From IMG/VR virus record IMGVR_UViG_3300030117_002313, positions 1 to 22,681 of that record: DNA of 22,681 bases. One strand, 5' to 3'. The position numbers and the translations under genes were made by a program. Under the pieces are notes generated by a model. The model searched no databases and was not told the DNA's origin. It saw only the letters and a list, made by a program, of their open reading frames with translations. The stretch is from a virus. Within the stretch, counting starts at the first letter, position 1. Every line of letters begins with the position of its first letter. This document shows, piece by piece, positions 7,923 to 21,907 of the stretch.

Positions 7923-8318
7923 TTATTCTCCCCATTTTTTTGTTTTCTTGCCGCCATCGTAATCAACTGCAAGATTTTCTTTTTTAAGCAAATCTGCAAC
8001 ATTTCCATGCTCGCAGAATACATCACCTAAAACTCTTCCATACTTATCAGTGCCATACGATCTTAATGTTATATCACCAACTAACCACTCTTTCAATTTA
8101 GCTTTTGCTAATAGACCAAGCTCTTTTTCTTTTTTGCGCTCAGGATATTTCTTAACATTTATCCTAGATTCAGGAGTGTCAATTTTGGCGATGCGTACGG
8201 CTTTGTTATGTAATTGCACTGAAAAGCCTAAGTCTATGGTCTCTAGACGAATGGTGTCGCCGTCCGTGACTGATTTTAATTTGCATTTATATACAAAAGC
8301 CTCAGGTGAATTACTCAT
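7923..8318 (-). CDS. Staphylococcal nuclease-like endonuclease
   Basis: This 131-aa protein is one complete SNase domain (thermonuclease family, Ca2+-dependent cleavage of DNA and RNA). All key positions are visible: Asp19 and Asp21 in TDGDTIR, Arg42 in VRIAKID, Asp47, Thr48 and Glu50 in IDTPES, and Arg95 in DKYGRVLGDV. There is no obvious signal peptide, so it probably acts in the cytoplasm or after lysis. Possible jobs are host DNA breakdown or trimming of released nucleic acid. It overlaps the upstream spanin stop by 8 nt and is followed 1 nt later by the endolysin, so it is embedded in the lysis cassette. Confidence 0.88.
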   Translation of the reverse strand: MSNSPEAFVYKCKLKSVTDGDTIRLETIDLGFSVQLHNKAVRIAKIDTPESRINVKKYPERKKEKELGLLAKAKLKEWLVGDITLRSYGTDKYGRVLGDVFCEHGNVADLLKKENLAVDYDGGKKTKKWGE

Positions 8319-9001: not shown

Positions 9002-9240
9002 TAAACATCCTCAATAATATAATTTAAGCCACTAGCACTTCTATACTCAACTATCTTGTTGTTCTGATCCCTAAATTTTAAGTGTTTTTCTTTTTGCACA
9101 ATTATTTTTTTTGTAATGTAGGACTTGTCATCTGAATCACCATATTCTTTATTAAAAGACACTGTAACTTTGTATCTGTTTGCAAACCAGTATTCATACC
9201 AAACAACCAGCTTTTTCCATATTTTTTTTAAACTGTCCAT
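9001..9240 (-). CDS. Small hypothetical phage protein
   Basis: This is a 79-aa soluble, basic and aromatic-rich protein with no membrane segment. An amphipathic N-terminal helix (SLKKIWKKLVVWYEYWF) is followed by a probable beta-rich part with YKVTVSF, EYGDSDDKSY and a C-terminal VEYRSASGLNYIIEDV. The C-terminal pattern looks familiar from small proteins in marine phage lysis regions, but I know no function. The start lies 13 nt inside the end of the cyclase gene and its stop overlaps the i-spanin start (TAATG), so it links the signalling genes to the lysis genes in one transcript. The helix could bind membranes peripherally. Confidence 0.65.
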   Translation of the reverse strand: MDSLKKIWKKLVVWYEYWFANRYKVTVSFNKEYGDSDDKSYITKKIIVQKEKHLKFRDQNNKIVEYRSASGLNYIIEDV

Positions 9241-10973
9241 ATAGCTAGCTTATGTCTCTTACCCTTTACCTTAATTGGTTTTAGTAATTTTAATACAATT
9301 TTACAATTTTTTGCAGTTCTGTAACCTATTAATATATCCCTGCCAACATCTTTGGTTGCTGACTCTAACCTTGCAGCAGTATTCACGGGATCTCCAATGG
9401 CAGAATAATCAAATCGAGTATCTGATCCCATATTACCTATTACCGCTTCTCCAGACTCTACACCAACACCAACAGCTACTGGAGTAGTAAGTGTTTTGTT
9501 AAGTTCATCAATGCCCTTTTGTATATCAATCGCAGCTTGAACTGCTTTGGTTTCGTGATCTTCACAATCTAAGGGCGCTCCAAAAATGAACATCCCTGCA
9601 TCGCCAATGAATTTGTCCGTCATTCCACCTAACTTTTGCACTGCGTTTACCTGCACAGTTAAAGTTTTATTCATTATGCTAGTCACCTCCTCTGGCGATA
9701 ACTCTTCACTTAATGAAGTGAAGCCGCGCAAATCGGTGAAAAGATAACTGCAATATTTTTTTTCTCCACCTAGTTTTAGTAAATCTGGATTTTTTTGTAG
9801 TTCTTTAATTTGTCGTGGATCAAGATAATGTTCAAATTGTTTTTTAATTTGTTGCCGTAATTTGTATTCTTTTCTAAACCGCAAATAGAAAATAACGCTA
9901 CCAATGATAAATTCTGATACCAAAGTCCATGAAAAATCCAATAAAATGCCATTTTTAATGCTAAAAACGCCTAAAACGCCCGTCAAGGCCATAAAAAAAA
10001 CACCGAAGGCTAACGCCTTGGTCATGCTCAGATAAGCGCATACAAGCGAAACTGTGAGCACGAAAATCGCAAAAATCAAAATTTCGGCAGCTAACGCCCA
10101 ATCTGGTATTTTTGGTGAGTCTTGAATCAAAATTGACTCAGCTAATGCTGCTTGAACCTTATGAGGACCAAGCAAACCAACAGGAGTTGCTACTTGCGGC
10201 ATGACGCCTGGTGCATCTACCGACACAAAAACAAATTTACCATCGACATTCATTTCATCTAATGTGGTTTCTGGTGTTTTTACCCAGCTAATCCATTTTC
10301 TACCTAAACGGTCAACATCAACAGGAGGTAAACCTTGCACGGTTATTTGTTGCATGCCATTTTCGTCGCCTTTAATAATATAAGTATCAGCACCTGCTAA
10401 AACTTTCAAAACCTCAGTGCCATAAGATGAGACGAAGCCATCTGGTGTTTGCATCAACAATGGCATGCGTCTTACAAGATTATCAACTTCGGAGGGAGCT
10501 GATGACAGACCTTGGGGGATTTGGAGGTAATCATGGCTGTTCGTGACAACTCCCTTAGCCATAATACCACTAATATTTTGACCAAGTAAAACAGTTCCGC
10601 TTGTTGGTGGATAAACTCCGTTGTCATACTCAAACATAGCTAAGACACTTGGACTATAACTAAGTGCTTCTAAAAAGACATCATCACCACCAAAACGATC
10701 TGGTTGTGGAAAAGATATAACCCAGCCTACACCGATAGCTCCTGCGTTCAGTAAGTCAACATGTATTTGTGCAAGTTCTTGTCTAGGAAATGGCCAACCA
10801 CCAGACTTAAATATATCCTCTTGTGTAATATTGAGAATTGCAAAGTTACCACTAGGATCGTATTTTTTAACAAAGGTATCAAAGGTTTGTAATTTCAAAA
10901 TTTGTAAAGGATATGCTTGAAAAAGCAAAGGTATTAACAGTATCAACAATACTGAAAATATTAGCTTTTTCAT
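9228..10973 (-). CDS. CHASE2-domain class III adenylate cyclase
   Basis: This 581-aa integral membrane receptor cyclase makes cAMP from ATP. An N-terminal hydrophobic helix (residues 4-19) is followed by a CHASE2-type extracytoplasmic sensor (about 25-285) with family-like segments SGGWPFPRQELAQ and a GA-rich helix before FPQPDR. Three membrane helices span about 292-316, 317-338 and 346-366. The cytoplasmic cyclase domain runs from about 405 to 581. Metal-binding Asp414 (LFTDLRGFT) and Asp458 (FIGDAGMF) are present. Lys454 and Asp522 match the ATP-selecting pair, and Asn531 and Arg535 (NTAAR) are the transition-state residues, so it should be active. The start overlaps the FecR gene by ATGA. 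A complete sensor cyclase is highly unusual in a phage late operon. Confidence 0.9.
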   Translation of the reverse strand: MKKLIFSVLLILLIPLLFQAYPLQILKLQTFDTFVKKYDPSGNFAILNITQEDIFKSGGWPFPRQELAQIHVDLLNAGAIGVGWVISFPQPDRFGGDDVFLEALSYSPSVLAMFEYDNGVYPPTSGTVLLGQNISGIMAKGVVTNSHDYLQIPQGLSSAPSEVDNLVRRMPLLMQTPDGFVSSYGTEVLKVLAGADTYIIKGDENGMQQITVQGLPPVDVDRLGRKWISWVKTPETTLDEMNVDGKFVFVSVDAPGVMPQVATPVGLLGPHKVQAALAESILIQDSPKIPDWALAAEILIFAIFVLTVSLVCAYLSMTKALAFGVFFMALTGVLGVFSIKNGILLDFSWTLVSEFIIGSVIFYLRFRKEYKLRQQIKKQFEHYLDPRQIKELQKNPDLLKLGGEKKYCSYLFTDLRGFTSLSEELSPEEVTSIMNKTLTVQVNAVQKLGGMTDKFIGDAGMFIFGAPLDCEDHETKAVQAAIDIQKGIDELNKTLTTPVAVGVGVESGEAVIGNMGSDTRFDYSAIGDPVNTAARLESATKDVGRDILIGYRTAKNCKIVLKLLKPIKVKGKRHKLAIWTV

Positions 10974-12091
10974 CCAGAGCTTTGTTTAATATTAATTACC
11001 GACGATGAGGAACCGTTTATCTGTACTGTTCTAGTTACACCATCTTGAATAAATATAACTGTATATGAATCATCGCCATTAATTAAAACTTGTGCGTTTT
11101 GATTTACCATTCGCATTAATTTTACCTGATTGCCTTGTATTATAGTAGTAATCTGAGTTTCCAGATCTTGACCTATTTTTGTACCAGCTATTTGTACGCC
11201 GCTTGCAAAATTTGTGAGAGTCTCCTCTTCATCCTCTACATCTAACTCATCTAATACATCTAGTAGGTTTTCAAAATAATCGGTTGCTAGGTAATCAATA
11301 TCTAGCTCTGAAAAAGACATGTCCTCTTCTTCTTCAAGAAAATCCTCTGCTAAAGCATCTATCTCAAGATCGGCAAAATCAAGATAATCTGATTGTTCGC
11401 TTTGTTGCACCTCTTCATTTATAGCTCCTTCTTTTGGCGGAGAAACAATTAACATGTTGTCAATAAAATTTAGATCTATGTCTAAAGTAACAGGTTTAGT
11501 TGGTGCTTTTTCATACATTGAGGTGGTGGTTGCTTGGTAGGGTTTGTTTAGTAAAGTTTGACCTGCTGCTGTTTGCACCAAAATCTCGCCACTAGCATTA
11601 CCAAACTCATCCGGTAACAAAATTATTAATGCTTTGCCTAAAAGATCTACGCTACAAACAAAATCTGTGCCTTGAACAAAAATTTGTGAAGTAGGAGTAG
11701 ATAGGGTGATATTTTTCTTACTTAACTTGTTTGCATTACCACTAATAAAACGAATAGTCCCACTAGCAAACTGTAAAGCCATTTTGGATTTATCTGGATT
11801 AGGGTTGAAAACATACTCATTTATTAAAAGATTGCTGTGTTCTGTAAGTCTAACAGTAGACTCATCAAGAAATGTAATGGCAATGCGGCCAGCAGAGGTT
11901 TCGACATTATCTAACGAGTTTATGTCAAAATCTAACTCAGCAGCAAAAGTCTCGTCTCTTACAACTCTGCCGTATCCTGTTAATTCAGTTATATCTCCAA
12001 TCGAATCAGCATGAAGTGGTGGTGCCACCATCATTTTGAATGACGCAAATATTAGAATTTGAAGTATTAGATATGATGGATAACCAGTCAC
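10970..12091 (-). CDS. Secreted FecR-domain protein
   Basis: This is a 373-aa protein from GTG 12091. Residues 1-28 look like a signal peptide (hydrophobic LILQILIFASF, then APPLHA before the probable cut). Residues about 60-160 match the FecR domain: a SAGRIAITFLDESTVRLTEHS segment equivalent, ALQFASGTIRF, then TPTSQIFVQGTDF. A strongly acidic region at about 230-295 and a beta-rich C-terminus (VLINGDDSYTVIFIQDG) follow. There is no cytoplasmic anti-sigma helix, so it is a periplasmic or surface FecR protein rather than a FecI regulator. It overlaps the curlin-like gene by 86 nt and the cyclase by 4 nt. I recall such FecR proteins beside CHASE2 cyclases in bacteria, so it may present a signal to the cyclase. 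The start has a weak ribosome site; an internal ATG at residue 20 would lose the signal peptide. Confidence 0.8.
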   Translation of the reverse strand: MTGYPSYLILQILIFASFKMMVAPPLHADSIGDITELTGYGRVVRDETFAAELDFDINSLDNVETSAGRIAITFLDESTVRLTEHSNLLINEYVFNPNPDKSKMALQFASGTIRFISGNANKLSKKNITLSTPTSQIFVQGTDFVCSVDLLGKALIILLPDEFGNASGEILVQTAAGQTLLNKPYQATTTSMYEKAPTKPVTLDIDLNFIDNMLIVSPPKEGAINEEVQQSEQSDYLDFADLEIDALAEDFLEEEEDMSFSELDIDYLATDYFENLLDVLDELDVEDEEETLTNFASGVQIAGTKIGQDLETQITTIIQGNQVKLMRMVNQNAQVLINGDDSYTVIFIQDGVTRTVQINGSSSSVINIKQSSG

Positions 12092-12731
12092 GAGCTAAAG
12101 TTGAAGATTGAGTTATGTCTAGTGTGTTATTGCTACCGTCAAGATCTAGATTAAAATAACCTGAATCTGATGCAGTTGTGCCAGAATAACCACTAGCGGT
12201 GAAATTAACCGTATTGGTACTGCCATTGATGTCCATGTAATTGACTGCATTTTCATAATCAATATCAAAGTCAAACACATTAGAATCACCAGTAATAATC
12301 CAGTCAAGATTAAGATATGACGAGTCAGCATTTTCTGCGATTTTAATATCTGCCTCATTGCTAGATCCTGTTACATCAATATTAAGATCTACATAATCAG
12401 CTGTTATCAAACCTGTTGAGTTCATTAACAAATCCCAAACATTGCTATCGCCATCATATTCAAAAAAACCAGTAAAATTATCACCATCAATTGCGTCGGA
12501 TCTAAATATGTTAGAAGAACCGATTTGATTGATGTCAAGTGTCATTGACACACCATCGAGGTCAAGTGCCGTCATCGAGGTCGTGGTAGCACTGGTGCCA
12601 CCGATAAGGTTTGAAGAGCCAAGCTGTTCTAAATCAATAGCAGCTGAGTTTCCAGATTGATCGACATAAATTTCGTTGTCAGCGATAACAGTTGTGCTCA
12701 ATAATAGTAAAAACAAGAGTTTATTCATCAT
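12006..12731 (-). CDS. Curlin-like repeat protein, putative export substrate of CsgG
   Basis: This is a 241-aa protein from ATG 12731, which follows a GGGA site; a longer frame upstream adds eight residues that hide the signal peptide. Residues 1-17 are a signal peptide (LLFLLLLSTTVIA). The mature part has irregular repeats carrying G-[SD]-[SNT]-N turns at residues 38, 71, 94, 122, 148, 170 and 199. The first copies keep the curlin Gln (YVDQSGNS, LEQLGSSN, INQIGSSN), while later ones replace it with Asp. Strand-turn repeats with Gly-Asn turns match curlin or CsgA-like amyloid subunits, although the repeats are longer (22-33 residues) and more acidic than those of E. coli. Two Cys lie near the C-terminus (Cys229, Cys241). 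The gene follows csgG with an 11-nt overlap, so it is the obvious cargo. Confidence 0.72.
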   Translation of the reverse strand: MMNKLLFLLLLSTTVIADNEIYVDQSGNSAAIDLEQLGSSNLIGGTSATTTSMTALDLDGVSMTLDINQIGSSNIFRSDAIDGDNFTGFFEYDGDSNVWDLLMNSTGLITADYVDLNIDVTGSSNEADIKIAENADSSYLNLDWIITGDSNVFDFDIDYENAVNYMDINGSTNTVNFTASGYSGTTASDSGYFNLDLDGSNNTLDITQSSTLARDWLSIISNTSNSNICVIQNDGGTTTSC

Positions 12732-13566
12732 AATATTCCCAAAAATTTCGTTCACGACCTTGTTTTACAATATCTACAATACCAATTTCAATGGCTGATT
12801 GCAAAGCGATGGACTTACTTTCATTCATGGCATTTCCAGTTTCAAATTCTAAAAGCTCGGTATCGTTTGCTATAAACCTAAATACATCACCTGATAAACC
12901 AACAGACAATATGGTTTTTGTGGTTAAGTTTTCTAATAAAATTTCGCCTGTGCTAACGGACACCACTCTTATAGAAACAACCACAGTGTCCTCTCTATAC
13001 TGTTTGCTCCCGCCCACACCAAGATAGCGAGCGCCAACACCACCTGTTAGTAAGTTTGTGTTGTAATCAACAATACCTCCTTCAATAATAAGTCCTGCAA
13101 ATAGTAACGGTAATTGCTCTGTTTCATCTTCAAACTTTTCACGCGTTGATCTAATTATTTGGCGTTCACGGCTGATGTGATCGATGCCCACGCGCTCGAC
13201 CACGCGAAAAAAGCCAGATTGTTTCAAAGCTCTAATAAGGTAAGTTTCAGGAGCTTGCGTCATAGCTGTACTGAAATTAGCATAGCCATCTACTGATTTT
13301 CTTTGTCCAGTAAAATCACCAAACTTGTACACAGCAACCACAGGGCGCACTTTTGGAGCTGGCAGGCTTTGTATTTCTTTCGTAATAGGCTTGTTGTTGT
13401 AAGCAGTTTTAGAGAAACATTGTGCTTTGCCAACAATAGATACGAGGTCTTTGTAGTCTCCTTCGGGGTTAGTTAAGCAGGGTGATATAAGTTTGATGTG
13501 CGAAACGCAGCTAGCCACCAAAACCAAAGTCGCCGATTGGAATAGTAATTTCAGTAGTCGTTCCAT
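12721..13566 (-). CDS. csgG: CsgG-type curli export channel lipoprotein
   Basis: This 281-aa protein is close to E. coli CsgG (277 aa). The lipobox VASC puts the lipidated residue at Cys20. CsgG landmarks occur in order: LPAPKVRPVVAVYKFGD (68-84) with the following TGQ, NFSTAMTQAP (97-106, holding the Asn-Phe of the constriction loop), a helix with RALKQSGFFRVVERVG, GGVGARYLGVGG matching the CsgG loop, VSVSTGEIL, and KTILSVGLSGDVFRF for the barrel. The Tyr of the E. coli constriction is not in the same register. An extra stretch of about 20 residues with Cys30 and Cys50 precedes LPAP, and the C-terminal tail is shorter. CsgG nonamers form an outer-membrane pore exporting unfolded curlins. The ATG lies 56 nt inside csgF and has no clear ribosome site. 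Confidence 0.95.
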   Translation of the reverse strand: MERLLKLLFQSATLVLVASCVSHIKLISPCLTNPEGDYKDLVSIVGKAQCFSKTAYNNKPITKEIQSLPAPKVRPVVAVYKFGDFTGQRKSVDGYANFSTAMTQAPETYLIRALKQSGFFRVVERVGIDHISRERQIIRSTREKFEDETEQLPLLFAGLIIEGGIVDYNTNLLTGGVGARYLGVGGSKQYREDTVVVSIRVVSVSTGEILLENLTTKTILSVGLSGDVFRFIANDTELLEFETGNAMNESKSIALQSAIEIGIVDIVKQGRERNFWEYYDE

Positions 13567-13975
13567 CTAAAGTATTAAAAATAGTTAGGGTGATGTAAGT
13601 CCCGTCGCTGGACCAACTAATTATATTATCGAACAAGGTAAAAGATCCTGATGTTTCCGGGTTTTCACCAAATAGCTGTTCTACGATCTGTCTGCTAATT
13701 TGTGCGAAGATGCGTGATTCTAAGTTTTTAGTAAATCTAGAAATTACTGAGTTCTCTTCGTCTCTTTTTCTTTGCTCTTCTAGAGCGCGCAGATCTGCTT
13801 GTAGTTGTTGTTTTCGCGAGAACTCCTGTTGCTCAATCGTAAGATAATGTGCAGAAGTGTTAATACCACTGAATGAGGGAGACTTAAATTGAAACTTTAT
13901 TTCATCAGCTTGTGCTTGCTCAACCATGCAAAAAGTAAACGCCAACATAAAAGATAATAAAAATCCTGCAAACAT
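13511..13975 (-). CDS. csgF: CsgF-type curli assembly factor
   Basis: This is a 154-aa protein from ATG 13975, chosen because an ACGAGG site lies upstream and the signal peptide then starts properly; a longer frame begins at 14014. Residues 1-23 are the signal peptide (ending EQAQA). The mature N-terminus DEIKFQFKSPSFSG closely follows E. coli CsgF, whose N-terminal segment plugs into the CsgG pore. A charged helix of about 45-78, absent or shorter in E. coli, is followed by RFTKNLESRIFAQISRQIVE and a beta-rich end (ITLTIFNTLDGTTTEITIP) that matches the CsgF C-terminal domain. CsgF is surface exposed and couples secretion to fibre nucleation. It overlaps csgG by 56 nt in another frame. The pairing confirms both assignments. 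Confidence 0.92.
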   Translation of the reverse strand: MFAGFLLSFMLAFTFCMVEQAQADEIKFQFKSPSFSGINTSAHYLTIEQQEFSRKQQLQADLRALEEQRKRDEENSVISRFTKNLESRIFAQISRQIVEQLFGENPETSGSFTLFDNIISWSSDGTYITLTIFNTLDGTTTEITIPIGDFGFGG

Positions 13976-13976
13976 G

Positions 13977-14237
13977 TTAGCCTCGTTTTTTGTTTTGTTT
14001 ATTTTTATTTTCATTTTTAAGTTTTACAACCGTGTCTACTTTTTCTTTTAATCGTATCATATCTTGATCTAAAAGTCGTAGCTGATCGGTAAGCCGTATT
14101 ATCGTCTTTTTCATCTCACCTATGGATGGATCTATTATATTAGTGATTGTCTGCCAAACAAAATAAACGAAGTAACCAAGTCCAATTACCATGACAGTGG
14201 GAAACCCAAATGTTTGAACAAAACTAACAATGTCCAT
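13977..14237 (-). CDS. Small membrane protein with coiled coil (holin-like candidate)
   Basis: This is an 86-aa protein. One membrane helix spans about residues 9-31 (FGFPTVMVIGLGYFVYFVWQ), followed by a helical segment at 40-70 that looks like a coiled coil, and a very basic Lys/Asn tail. This layout of one N-terminal helix and a charged coiled-coil tail resembles UviB/BhlA-like holin-associated phage proteins, though no strict motif proves it. The start overlaps the stop of the previous small membrane gene (TGATG), and csgF starts 2 nt after its own stop. It could form membrane lesions or anchor a complex involving the Csg proteins. Function is uncertain. Confidence 0.55.
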   Translation of the reverse strand: MDIVSFVQTFGFPTVMVIGLGYFVYFVWQTITNIIDPSIGEMKKTIIRLTDQLRLLDQDMIRLKEKVDTVVKLKNENKNKQNKKRG

Positions 14238-14533
14238 CAGTCACGCCTTGCATCTATTTTGCCGTCTTCAACAAAGTTTTCTGCTCTTGCTATGCGCTCA
14301 AGATCAGGCGGTATGTCAAGCGCACTTGACACCACTGTATCTATCCTAATGATATCATTATTCATTATAGAGGCTCTAGTTATAAGCATTTTAGTAATTC
14401 CTTGTATCGATTTAATATCCGCAACAAGATTGCCCATCAATTGTTTGATTACTAAAAATATAAAATAGGCCATGATAAGGCCGCTAGCTATGGGTAAGCC
14501 TAAGTCAGCTATTAAGCCGACAGCTTGGTTCAT
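14237..14533 (-). CDS. Small membrane protein
   Basis: This is a 98-aa protein with one membrane helix at about residues 12-33 (LPIASGLIMAYFIFLVIKQL) and a polar C-terminal part that is probably helical and cytoplasmic (ARAENFVEDGKIDARRD at the end). The organisation parallels the next gene, which has a similar LP/FP-leading membrane helix, so the two may be distant paralogues or partners. It is coupled on both sides: TAATG with the preceding gene and TGATG with the following one. A holin or antiholin pair is a reasonable idea given spanins and endolysin downstream, but it is not demonstrated. Confidence 0.55.
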   Translation of the reverse strand: MNQAVGLIADLGLPIASGLIMAYFIFLVIKQLMGNLVADIKSIQGITKMLITRASIMNNDIIRIDTVVSSALDIPPDLERIARAENFVEDGKIDARRD

Positions 14534-14922
14534 TATTCTTTGCCTTCGCCTTTAAAACTCTTAGATGCTCCTGATGTTCCAGCATAAAGACCAAACCAAG
14601 CAGCGCCAGCACCAACAATAATTGATATAAGACCAGACTGTTCAAATGTAGGACTCTCTAGTGCCATAAACCACATGGTTGAGTAATACAACAAAAAGAT
14701 ATACACACTCAAAAACGCTCTTGGGAAAATACGCCAGGAATCAACTGCTTGTGCTAAATGAATCCATTTTTGATGTGGATTGACATTGCTAACATCTTCT
14801 AGTTCTCTAATTTTATCTTTAAGATCTGAAATTTCACGCATCATGTCCATGAACTTATTGAGGTCCATTTCAACTTCGTTTCTATCCATATCTCCGCTAA
14901 ATTGTCCTTGATTCATATTCAT
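14533..14922 (-). CDS. Two-helix membrane protein, holin candidate
   Basis: This is a 129-aa protein from ATG 14922, chosen for its ATGA overlap with the previous gene; the longer frame merely copies that gene's DNA. Residues 1-50 are polar with a coiled-coil helix (MDMMREISDLKDKIRELED). Two membrane helices follow at about 67-88 (FPRAFLSVYIFLLYYSTMWF) and 97-114, separated by a short loop. The C-terminus is short and charged (KSFKGEGKE). Two closely spaced helices with a charged tail fit a holin, but the extended N-terminus is larger than usual. It lies among other tiny membrane genes ahead of the lysis enzymes, so it is the best holin candidate here. Confidence 0.6.
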   Translation of the reverse strand: MNMNQGQFSGDMDRNEVEMDLNKFMDMMREISDLKDKIRELEDVSNVNPHQKWIHLAQAVDSWRIFPRAFLSVYIFLLYYSTMWFMALESPTFEQSGLISIIVGAGAAWFGLYAGTSGASKSFKGEGKE

Positions 14923-15101
14923 ACAAAACTCGCTGCTACTATTGCGCCAACAATAAAAGGATACACGGCCCACAACATAGTTTCTAGCTTATCGAATCTT
15001 TTGGATCCGTCGGTAAGCCTTTGTTCTATGTTAGCGTATCGAATAGCACACTCTTTTTCGTGCGCCTCAATCTTAGCCATAGTATCTTTTACAGTTGCCA
15101 T
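14919..15101 (-). CDS. Small XhlA-like membrane-anchored coiled-coil protein
   Basis: This is a 60-aa protein. Residues 1-40 form a charged helix with Cys18 (KIEAHEKECAIRYANIEQRL), and residues 42-59 a C-terminal hydrophobic helix (MLWAVYPFIVGAIVAASFV). A coiled coil ending in a tail anchor is the XhlA layout, and XhlA-like proteins are encoded with holins and endolysins in several phages. The start overlaps the stop of a 52-aa gene in a TAATG junction, and its own stop overlaps the two-helix protein start. Family assignment is by layout only. Confidence 0.55.
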   Translation of the reverse strand: MATVKDTMAKIEAHEKECAIRYANIEQRLTDGSKRFDKLETMLWAVYPFIVGAIVAASFV

Positions 15102-20213: not shown

Positions 20214-21005
20214 CTATTCGTGGTGCAGTCCTTGGAACTTGCGTTTGAGAATCCTGTGGACCTTGTGATACGGAAAATCCTCATAGCCAGGGTGTGAACT
20301 CTGAATCTGTTTAGCTATCTTTCTTGCACCTAAGCCTTTTTCGCGTAATGCCCAAATATGTTTGAGCACTGCAAACTCCTCAGGAATAGGCACTAGCTTA
20401 GTTCTGCGTCTACTGCCGGAGTCGTCATACTCCTTGCGATAACCAAACGGCGTTTTACCGCCAATAGAGTAGCCTTTCTCTGCATAGACAAGTTTGCCAC
20501 CGTTAAGTCGAGACATAATCGTTTCTCTTTCAATCTCAGCAAACATAGCCATATTAGTAACAAGTTGTTGGTTGGCGATCCTTGTCATATCCATCTTTGC
20601 CTCTAAGCCTGTTTTGGCTTTTTCTTTGGGTAAAACCACAGGTATATCATTGAACATATCGCAGAAATACAGTGTAATACCAGTCTCCTCAAGTGTAGGA
20701 ATCATGTTTAGCATTTCAAGAAAAGATCTTGCAAGTCTGTCCAGTTTGGTTGCTACTATCACATCGTTGGCGTCCATCACATCAGTCAGCTCTCTAGAGC
20801 CTGGTCGCTCTAACAAAGGCTTCATGCCACTAATACCAGCGTCGGTAAAGAACTTGTCAACTTTCCTGCCACCGTATTTGTTAGCGACAAACTCCTCAAT
20901 CGATCTCTTTTGTTCTTCGAGTGAAGAGCCATCTCGAACCTGTTGCTCAGACGATACTCTGATATAGCCATAAATATTGTTTACTTGTTTTCTTGGTTCA
21001 ATCAT
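20214..21005 (-). CDS. Serine recombinase (resolvase/invertase family)
   Basis: This 263-aa protein starts at ATG 21005, preceded by GGAGGGAAAGAGT and overlapping the metallopeptidase stop as ATGA. The catalytic resolvase domain covers about residues 11-160: YGYIRVSSEQQ gives the nucleophile Ser18, and VATKLDRLARSF (about 84-95) holds the conserved Arg pair. The IERETIMSRLNGGKLVYAEK segment is the long helix leading to the DNA-binding part. Residues 195-263 form a short recombinase-like or helix-turn-helix C-terminus (GARKIAKQIQ, PYHKVHRILKRKF). It lacks the large Cys-rich and coiled-coil regions of integrases of 450-600 residues, so inversion or resolution, or an atypical integrase, are all possible. 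No att site was identified. Confidence 0.9.
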   Translation of the reverse strand: MIEPRKQVNNIYGYIRVSSEQQVRDGSSLEEQKRSIEEFVANKYGGRKVDKFFTDAGISGMKPLLERPGSRELTDVMDANDVIVATKLDRLARSFLEMLNMIPTLEETGITLYFCDMFNDIPVVLPKEKAKTGLEAKMDMTRIANQQLVTNMAMFAEIERETIMSRLNGGKLVYAEKGYSIGGKTPFGYRKEYDDSGSRRRTKLVPIPEEFAVLKHIWALREKGLGARKIAKQIQSSHPGYEDFPYHKVHRILKRKFQGLHHE

Positions 21006-21907
21006 ACTCTTTCCCTCCATGCTTTTCTTGTAGACCAAATCAATGTGTGAAGTTTTGTTTTTTCTCCAGTTGTGAACATAAAGTTAGCAAATTTAGAAAA
21101 TTTCTTTTGGTATTCTTCATATTTATTAGTGACTTTCTGTTGATGTAGATGATTGAACTCCCAAAAATAAAATTTAGCATGATGTTCATGGATTAGTTTC
21201 AAAGCTCTTTCATACGCTTCTTTCCATGACCATACTGTATGTTCTCTCATATCTCTATCTGCTTCCCAGTCAAGTTCATGTTCCAATGTCTTATCGTAGA
21301 CATCTATTTCAATTCCACCACTATAAAACTGGTCGTAGTTCCTTTGAATTTTAAGCCAGTCATACTGCTCAAGTAAATCCTTACATTTTTGTTTTGGATG
21401 TATTCTTTTCTTTACAACTTTCTTAGGTAAAGGAACAAACTCTTTTGCAACTTGTGGAAAAGGTTTTATTCTTTTGCTTAGTCTCTTCTTCGCATCTGAT
21501 CTATCAAATCCAATAAATCTAATATTTCTTTCATTCAGACTTTTTGCAAGTTCTTTTAAAGTAGGTTGTTCTGGATGTAGATAACTCAGAAGCATGCAGA
21601 AGTTTGAAACAAACTCTGGTCCATGTGCTTCTACTTTCTGTGGCGTAATGATATGAGCATATTCGTGAAGAAGGACTTCATAGTTTCTTGCCCATTTGTT
21701 TTGAATAGCTATTAGATTTTTACCTCTTGCATAACTTACTCCGTTATGAATGTTTTTGAACTTTAATTCAGTTTTGCGTTTGAAAATTTTATCAAGTTTT
21801 TTAATAACTTCTTTGCACTGGTCTTGTGTCAGATAGCTTGTTTTACAACCCCACGACTGAGAGTTTTCCCAGTTGTAGACTTTTTGTCTTTGCATGTCTC
21901 TAGCCAT
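21002..21907 (-). CDS. SprT-like zinc metallopeptidase
   Basis: This is a 301-aa soluble protein. The zinc site is plain: HEYAH at residues 81-85, with Glu82 catalytic, and a third ligand probably His95 in EAHGPEF. The HExxH followed by HGxxF matches the SprT/WSS1-like group. Residues 1-75 hold the N-terminal helix and strand of that fold, including YARGKNLIAIQNKW. The C-terminal 150 residues are very basic then aromatic and helical, and I do not recognise them. SprT-like proteins are often linked to DNA-protein crosslink processing, but the phage role is unknown; cutting a host protein or a phage precursor is possible. It overlaps the recombinase start by ATGA and adjoins the OB-fold gene by 1 nt. 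Confidence 0.75.
   Translation of the reverse strand: MARDMQRQKVYNWENSQSWGCKTSYLTQDQCKEVIKKLDKIFKRKTELKFKNIHNGVSYARGKNLIAIQNKWARNYEVLLHEYAHIITPQKVEAHGPEFVSNFCMLLSYLHPEQPTLKELAKSLNERNIRFIGFDRSDAKKRLSKRIKPFPQVAKEFVPLPKKVVKKRIHPKQKCKDLLEQYDWLKIQRNYDQFYSGGIEIDVYDKTLEHELDWEADRDMREHTVWSWKEAYERALKLIHEHHAKFYFWEFNHLHQQKVTNKYEEYQKKFSKFANFMFTTGEKTKLHTLIWSTRKAWRERV

Follow-up and report, generated by a model that had tools for sequence, protein, structure and literature searches.

The csg locus and its host phage

The stretch of DNA analysed here (hereafter the window) is the 22,681 nucleotides of the IMG/VR virus record IMGVR_UViG_3300030117_002313, positions 1 to 22,681, which carries a set of curli-type (csg) genes on its minus strand, arranged in the order: two small membrane proteins, CsgF, CsgG, a curlin-like protein, a FecR protein and a CHASE2-adenylate cyclase. 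A sequence-only reading of the same DNA had picked out the csgF-csgG-curlin trio at 12006–13975 and described it as a ‘minimal system’; the trio stands, but the description does not, as the genes for the FecR protein (10970–12091) and the CHASE2-cyclase (9228–10973) overlap with it and belong to the unit. These two genes had been missed, as had the pair of small membrane proteins lying upstream (13977–14533). The features of the unit are as follows:

14237–14533, minus strand: small membrane protein (phrog_18771), 98 amino acids (aa), one hydrophobic N-terminal stretch and a charged tail ending DARRD
13977–14237, minus strand: small membrane protein (phrog_18771), 86 aa
13511–13975, minus strand: CsgF homologue, 154 aa, ATG at 13975, signal peptide and plug motif; Pfam PF10614
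13511–13566, minus strand: out-of-frame overlap of csgF and csgG, 56 nt, with the CsgG signal peptide and lipobox encoded almost entirely inside the 3′ end of csgF
12721–13566, minus strand: CsgG homologue, a predicted outer-membrane secretion-pore lipoprotein, 281 aa, lipobox LVASC; Pfam PF03783
12006–12731, minus strand: curlin-like secreted protein, predicted beta-solenoid, 241 aa, 7 regular GxxN turns and a C-terminal Cys pair
10970–12091, minus strand: secreted FecR-domain protein, 373 aa, GTG start; Pfam PF04773 (E 8.7e-9)
9228–10973, minus strand: CHASE2-sensor class III adenylate cyclase, 581 aa, four transmembrane segments; PF05226 (E 1.9e-21) and PF00211 (E 9.8e-19)

The large terminase subunit of the window finds its best matches in 023Pt_psg01 (63%) and HTVC027P (60%), whilst the portal is 46–54% alike to those of HTVC023P, psg01 and HTVC027P (best matches HTVC023P, 46%, and psg01, 54%); by its terminase and portal, the window phage is a marine podovirus of the HTVC023P type. 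The flanking fibre, spanin, endolysin and terminase genes are all confirmed, placing the csg block, as first described, inside the structural and lysis gene run of a phage, directly before the spanins, nuclease and endolysin. A chimeric assembly join, which the sequence-only reading had named as a way in which it could be wrong, can be ruled out: the junctions are common to many independent contigs, with one from a different metagenome (L002) holding the same order unbroken from fibre through to terminase, and dozens of others in agreement.

CsgF, CsgG and the curlin-like protein

Both secretion components match their Pfam families well above the respective cut-offs—CsgF to PF10614 (E 6.2e-19; 68.9 bits, cut-off 25.8) and CsgG to PF03783 (E 9.3e-46; 156 bits, cut-off 20.8)—thus upholding the identities first proposed for them. 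A phmmer search of the PDB additionally aligns residues 62–278 of the window CsgG with the solved structures of the E. coli protein (E 6e-45). As judged by a simple pattern, the lipobox is present in the window CsgG and in 141 of 160 viral relatives. In alignments, the N-terminal plug motif of CsgF reads FQFKSPSFSG (FxFxxPxFxG), with F30, P33, F35 and G37 invariant with respect to E. coli CsgF; and the NFSTA motif of E. coli CsgG, which we take to be the constriction of the pore and the place of N55 and F56 (E. coli numbering), is kept in the podovirus form and becomes QLSTA in the myophages HTVC008M and Melnitz. We infer from these features that CsgG and CsgF would build an outer-membrane pore.

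The overlaps of 56 and 11 nt within the trio are exactly as first reported, and that between csgF and csgG measures 53–59 nt in 77 of 79 relatives; the two exceptions are HTVC008M and Melnitz, which have no overlap at this point. An in-frame ATG at 14014 is a less likely start for csgF, having no signal peptide at its beginning. CsgE was sought with PF10627 in the window, 9 related virus contigs, HTVC008M, Melnitz and a Hyphomonas genome (see below) and gave no match, with an E. coli control being positive; its absence from the window had been noted from the outset, and holds for the 11 related phage records. Neither CsgC nor CsgD was seen among the proteins scanned.

The curlin-like protein contains 8 GxxN turns, as compared to 2.1 expected (a number reached in 0 of 2000 shuffles), located at positions 38, 71, 94, 122, 148, 170 and 199, plus one more. 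Amongst its relatives, 17 of 29 match the Pfam Curlin_rpt family at E values up to 0.1 (best 2e-5), with relatives also scoring above the Pfam cut-off; a profile of the family gives a 97.7% match to its curlin-like counterpart in a csg operon of Hyphomonas. AlphaFold returns a confident model (pLDDT 85, pTM 0.79), all beta and solenoid-like, which a structural aligner groups with beta-helix proteins (Z up to 17). A Foldseek search of the PDB with the model returned nothing significant; the cryo-EM structures of curli are absent from the matches, which proves nothing.

The Cys pair is formed by residues 229 and 241 (12006–12050). All of the podovirus curlin-like proteins have a C-terminal Cys, the second usually lying 12 residues before it; in the myophages, a pair is found near residues 98 and 107 instead.

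Some myophage relatives carry a second curlin, which scores above the Pfam cut-off and can have a PA14 domain at its N-terminus, followed by the curlin repeats:

L082 (10471–11796): second curlin with PA14 before the repeats
L216 (10065–11339): second curlin with PA14 before the repeats
L223 (7570–8871): second curlin with PA14 before the repeats

The PA14 match has an E value of 2.7e-6 in HTVC008M, 2.4e-8 in L216 and 8e-9 in L223; in other myophages, different and unrelated N-terminal parts are found on the same curlin repeats. The variable portion looks like an exchangeable adhesive tip, with the PA14-curlin fusions pointing to adhesion.

FecR, the CHASE2-cyclase and the small membrane pair

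The FecR gene is coupled to its neighbours on both sides: it shares 86 nt with the curlin-like gene (12006–12091, out of frame), an overlap that holds most of the FecR signal peptide, and 4 nt (ATGA) with the cyclase gene. Our model of the FecR protein shows the periplasmic PupR/FecR fold (PupR Z 16.1, residues 58–214) plus a C-terminal beta domain. The only hydrophobic stretch found in the protein is the signal-like one at its N-terminus (residues 8–26), with the FecR domain directly after it; the cytoplasmic anti-sigma part, carried on an inner-membrane helix and paired with a sigma factor in the layout of an anti-sigma transducer, is missing. The C-terminal strands (I-x-I-x-Q) were considered as a form of curlin repeat and rejected (hhalign 0.6%).

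All of the catalytic residues of the cyclase are present—D414, K454, D458, D528, N531 and R535, comprising the two metal-binding aspartates, the adenine-reading Lys/Asp and the transition-state Asn/Arg—and are kept in 83–88 of 88 relatives; the phage enzyme is, from these residues, apparently both adenylate-specific and active. Class III cyclases are rare in the likely hosts: in a survey of 147 SAR11-family genomes (the family of a Pelagibacter metagenome-assembled genome (MAG), G002), for which completeness is not given, such that the counts speak of rarity rather than absence, just two have one above the cut-off. They are the same two that have CsgF; in one, the contig that bears the cyclase also has the full phage unit (L087); in the other, 4 kb of a single contig separate CsgF from the cyclase.

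The 98-aa and 86-aa small membrane proteins are paralogues of each other, with homologues in only six of 50,697 phage records (HTVC008M twice, Melnitz four times); these same six also carry the csgF-csgG unit. By position and copy number, we equate the pair with the genes labelled ‘HK’ (histidine kinase) in PMC9599517. The genes preceding csgF across the relatives encode membrane proteins of 81–117 aa with no kinase domain; no Pfam kinase is found in the 98-aa or 86-aa protein, and HATPase_c is absent from the window, 9 related virus contigs, HTVC008M and Melnitz. A histidine kinase upstream of csgF was considered and rejected; the name is, as far as domain searches can tell, not supported.

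Co-inheritance and constraint

We collected 80 viral loci by means of the window CsgG and about 80 by means of HTVC008M CsgG; as these were picked by CsgG similarity, the counts show what accompanies this CsgG and are no measure of the frequency of the unit. Each of the 52 podovirus loci with full context has the complete set of membrane protein, CsgF, curlin, FecR and cyclase; for the myoviruses, everything except the cyclase is found in 18 of 18 such loci, and the cyclase in 17, its occasional absence having also been reported in PMC9599517. The gene-neighbourhood survey that the sequence-only reading had proposed thus returns the full unit, which is inherited whole.

Pairwise comparison with the window by simple counting gives median ratios of nonsynonymous to synonymous substitution (dN/dS), with few pairs for some genes, of 0.12 for CsgF, 0.09 for CsgG, 0.04 for the curlin-like protein, 0.06 for FecR and 0.12 for the cyclase, as compared to 0.02 for terminase and portal, 0.22 for fibre and 0.27 for lysozyme in the same phages. 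The genes of the module are under purifying selection, with the curlin-like gene the most strongly constrained of the secreted parts.

Neighbouring genes

Upstream of the small membrane pair, at 14533–15101, lie two further small membrane or coiled-coil open reading frames (phrog_10198 and a 60-aa frame); no holin was identified in the window, and either of these could therefore be one. A staphylococcal-nuclease-type gene (7923–8318), retained in many relatives, sits between the spanin and endolysin genes. A serine recombinase of the resolvase/invertase type (20214–21038) adjoins the tail genes; several relatives have one, in a phage type otherwise known as lytic.

Copies in bacterial genomes and other carriers

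One bacterial MAG, Hyphomonas sp. TMED17, carries the five core genes in the order seen in the window, on a 705-kb contig amid ordinary bacterial genes:

L094 (9450–15473; NHBW01000006.1): csgF-csgG-curlin-FecR-CHASE2-cyclase, between genes for an FAA hydrolase and a 2OG oxygenase

Its curlin-like protein is 504 aa long, and the small membrane pair is missing. In the tree, its CsgG has a long branch and sits within the viral CsgG clade (100/99); its CsgF scores 65 bits, like the viral proteins, where other CsgF-bearing genomes of its family score 104–122. The FecR type is otherwise absent from 105 genomes of the family and has only remote matches in 385 of the class; a wide bacterial source was rejected on these counts. 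Taken with the viral placement of CsgG and the virus-like CsgF score, this isolation leaves two origins for the locus: survival from the donor lineage, or capture from a phage. FecR and cyclase have been stated not to lie within bacterial type VIII secretion system (T8SS) operons (PMC9599517); the TMED17 locus is a counterexample.

Phage-type T8SS units also occur on contigs binned elsewhere: L088, L089 (Maricaulis MAG IN14), L092 and L093 (Sphingobacteriales MAG), two of these four contigs being 121 and 142 kb long; suggesting that phages of hosts other than SAR11 carry the unit. We set aside OR851715.1 (L084, Salmonella phage S.Kent 1-2-1), a 1.5-kb unannotated, unverified, low-coverage contig. 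Its CsgG reading frame is 39% like that of the window, and it is probably wastewater sequence rather than the phage named in the record.

Discussion

We think that the block is probably a phage-encoded type VIII (curli-type) secretion unit, making an adhesive coat and monitored by the FecR protein and CHASE2-cyclase; most likely, it would serve to export an amyloid-like adhesive coat and to anchor it on the infected cell. The signal peptides of CsgG, CsgF, the curlin-like protein and FecR suggest that host Sec would take all four to the periplasm. There, by homology, the CsgG lipoprotein would form the outer-membrane pore, to be capped by the N-terminal segment of CsgF, in which the plug motif is kept; the curlin-like beta-solenoid protein could then exit via the pore, with CsgF retaining it at the surface and polymerising it there. 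The inner-membrane cyclase may in turn read periplasmic FecR by means of its CHASE2 domain, thereby converting the state of secretion or of the envelope into cyclic AMP (cAMP); gene coupling, localisation and the intact catalytic residues all speak for this step. The outcome would be an infected cell with a sticky, amyloid-like coat, the likely benefit being exclusion of competing phages or the holding together of nearby host cells. The constant curlin-like gene and the PA14 fusions fit such a secreted, adhesive coat better than they fit a pore on its own.

Homology, gene order, co-inheritance, purifying selection and the intact cyclase residues are shown here, whilst pore assembly, fibre formation, signalling and benefit are inferred. 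A number of points weigh against the coat. The window curlin-like protein is itself borderline with respect to Pfam Curlin_rpt (E 0.002–0.003; 18.3 bits, under the cut-off of 20.7); furthermore, the match of the family to E. coli CsgA/B is weak (26%, hhalign), and the PDB folds matched by the model are generic beta-helices. The lack of CsgE leaves the gating of the pore unexplained. This periplasmic gate raises export in E. coli and is reported as not strictly essential (PMC7029224). Infections with Melnitz show no clumping (PMC9004378). The host of the window phage is probably SAR11, as judged from its relatives, and a cAMP-binding domain (PF00027) is found in 9 of the 147 SAR11-family genomes; a phage-encoded cAMP receptor was looked for in 15 phage records, including the complete HTVC008M and Melnitz genomes, and none was found. 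With receptors rare in the SAR11 family and absent from the phages searched, the signalling chain lacks its final link; by the same token, the E. coli-like action of cAMP via CsgD proposed in PMC9599517 has no visible receptor to work through.

That CsgG and CsgF instead form a regulated outer-membrane hole (secretin- or pinholin-like), serving the timing of lysis or the entry of nutrients, with the curlin as a plug or of secondary importance, we regard as unlikely. A lysis-timing pore was proposed, with structural arguments, for the csg genes of Melnitz (PMC9004378, 2022), and sibling capture or uptake for the csgF-csgG cluster of pelagimyophages (PMC7029224, 2020); uptake was also proposed in PMC9599517. 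The position of the unit in the window, directly before spanins, nuclease and endolysin, accords with such a device, as does the lack of the CsgE gate. Strict linkage to a lysis cassette is, however, not universal: lysis genes of the window type lie within 3.5 kb after the unit in just 26 of the 40 podovirus loci whose sequence extends far enough, and the HTVC008M unit sits beside ssDNA-binding and tape-measure genes. Moreover, a pore alone leaves unexplained a curlin-like gene that is present in every full-context locus at a dN/dS of 0.04, and explains the PA14-curlin fusions no better.

It is less likely still that signalling comes first; that is, that the secreted protein, FecR and CHASE2-cyclase sense the state of the envelope or superinfection, with cAMP or the draining of ATP as output and export serving the sensor. 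Whilst the FecR gene overlaps that of the cyclase and both are inherited together with csgG, the cyclase residues are intact and the periplasmic fold of FecR resembles that of the anti-sigma regulator PupR, this proposal must contend with phages that have no cAMP receptor and SAR11 relatives that have few; and the export genes stay where the cyclase is absent (1 of 18 myovirus loci; see also PMC9599517). Passive or decaying cargo, be it unused genes from a bacterium or an assembly join, is highly improbable and already refuted: it draws on the foreign origin of the module and nothing beyond, and is contradicted by dN/dS values of 0.04–0.12, 100% co-occurrence and many independent contigs with the same junctions.

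Returning to the adhesive coat, a bolder version of the proposal is that of a self-contained phage machine for signalling and coating, in which FecR and the CHASE2-cyclase read the secretion of the exported curlin-like fibre and give out cAMP; we hold this to be doubtful. If true, the output would have to be a cAMP effector of an unrecognised kind or a purely metabolic effect, as most of these hosts have neither a class III cyclase nor a CRP-type receptor, and the phage-only small membrane pair would become a candidate partner in that output. The puzzle is in any case a real one: a conserved, apparently active adenylate cyclase, for whose cAMP neither phage nor host shows an evident receptor. 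Phages that give the most abundant ocean bacteria a pore and a surface fibre that those hosts lack would alter stickiness and coinfection at sea.

Comparison with known systems

The operon of the window is real, and has already been published in kind and nearly in detail. The sequence-only reading was correct in placing csgG and csgF in pelagimyophage-type genomes (PMC7029224), and the jobs that it suggested, namely coating of the infected cell, aggregation or an outer-membrane hole, can each be found in the literature. The curlin-like cargo, which it had judged the less expected part, is no novelty: the deposited HTVC008M record already lists CsgF, CsgG, a ‘curlin-associated protein’ and an adenylate/guanylyl cyclase, that of Melnitz has ‘curlin associated repeat’ proteins, and the full unit was described in myophages as well as nine HTVC023P-type podoviruses, with a gene set of ‘HK’, CsgF, CsgG, CsgA/B, FecR, an optional second CsgA/B and cyclase (PMC9599517, 2022). 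The same study reports expression in ocean metatranscriptomes, gene counts near a 1:1 ratio and transfer of the unit between phage families; it makes no mention of PA14. Our additions are a firmer membership of the unit, the questioning of the ‘histidine kinase’ annotation, the absence of CsgE, the PA14-curlin fusions, the Hyphomonas copy and the cAMP puzzle.

The closest counterparts are the HTVC023P-type pelagipodophages, which share phage type, genes and order with the window, differing in the optional second curlin that the window does without. The myophages HTVC008M (a Pelagibacter phage) and Melnitz (a Methylophilales phage) keep the same order and strand, with CsgG proteins 48% and 44% identical to that of the window; unlike the window, they place an additional curlin-repeat gene, which in HTVC008M includes a PA14 domain, between those for FecR and cyclase, have no csgF/csgG overlap and lack the C-terminal Cys pair in their first curlin, and the unit in HTVC008M is not next to lysis genes. 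With the csgBAC/csgDEFG system of E. coli, the window has in common CsgG, the CsgF plug motif and curlin-type GxxN turns; it departs from that system in having no CsgE and in adding the FecR protein, the CHASE2-cyclase and the small membrane proteins.

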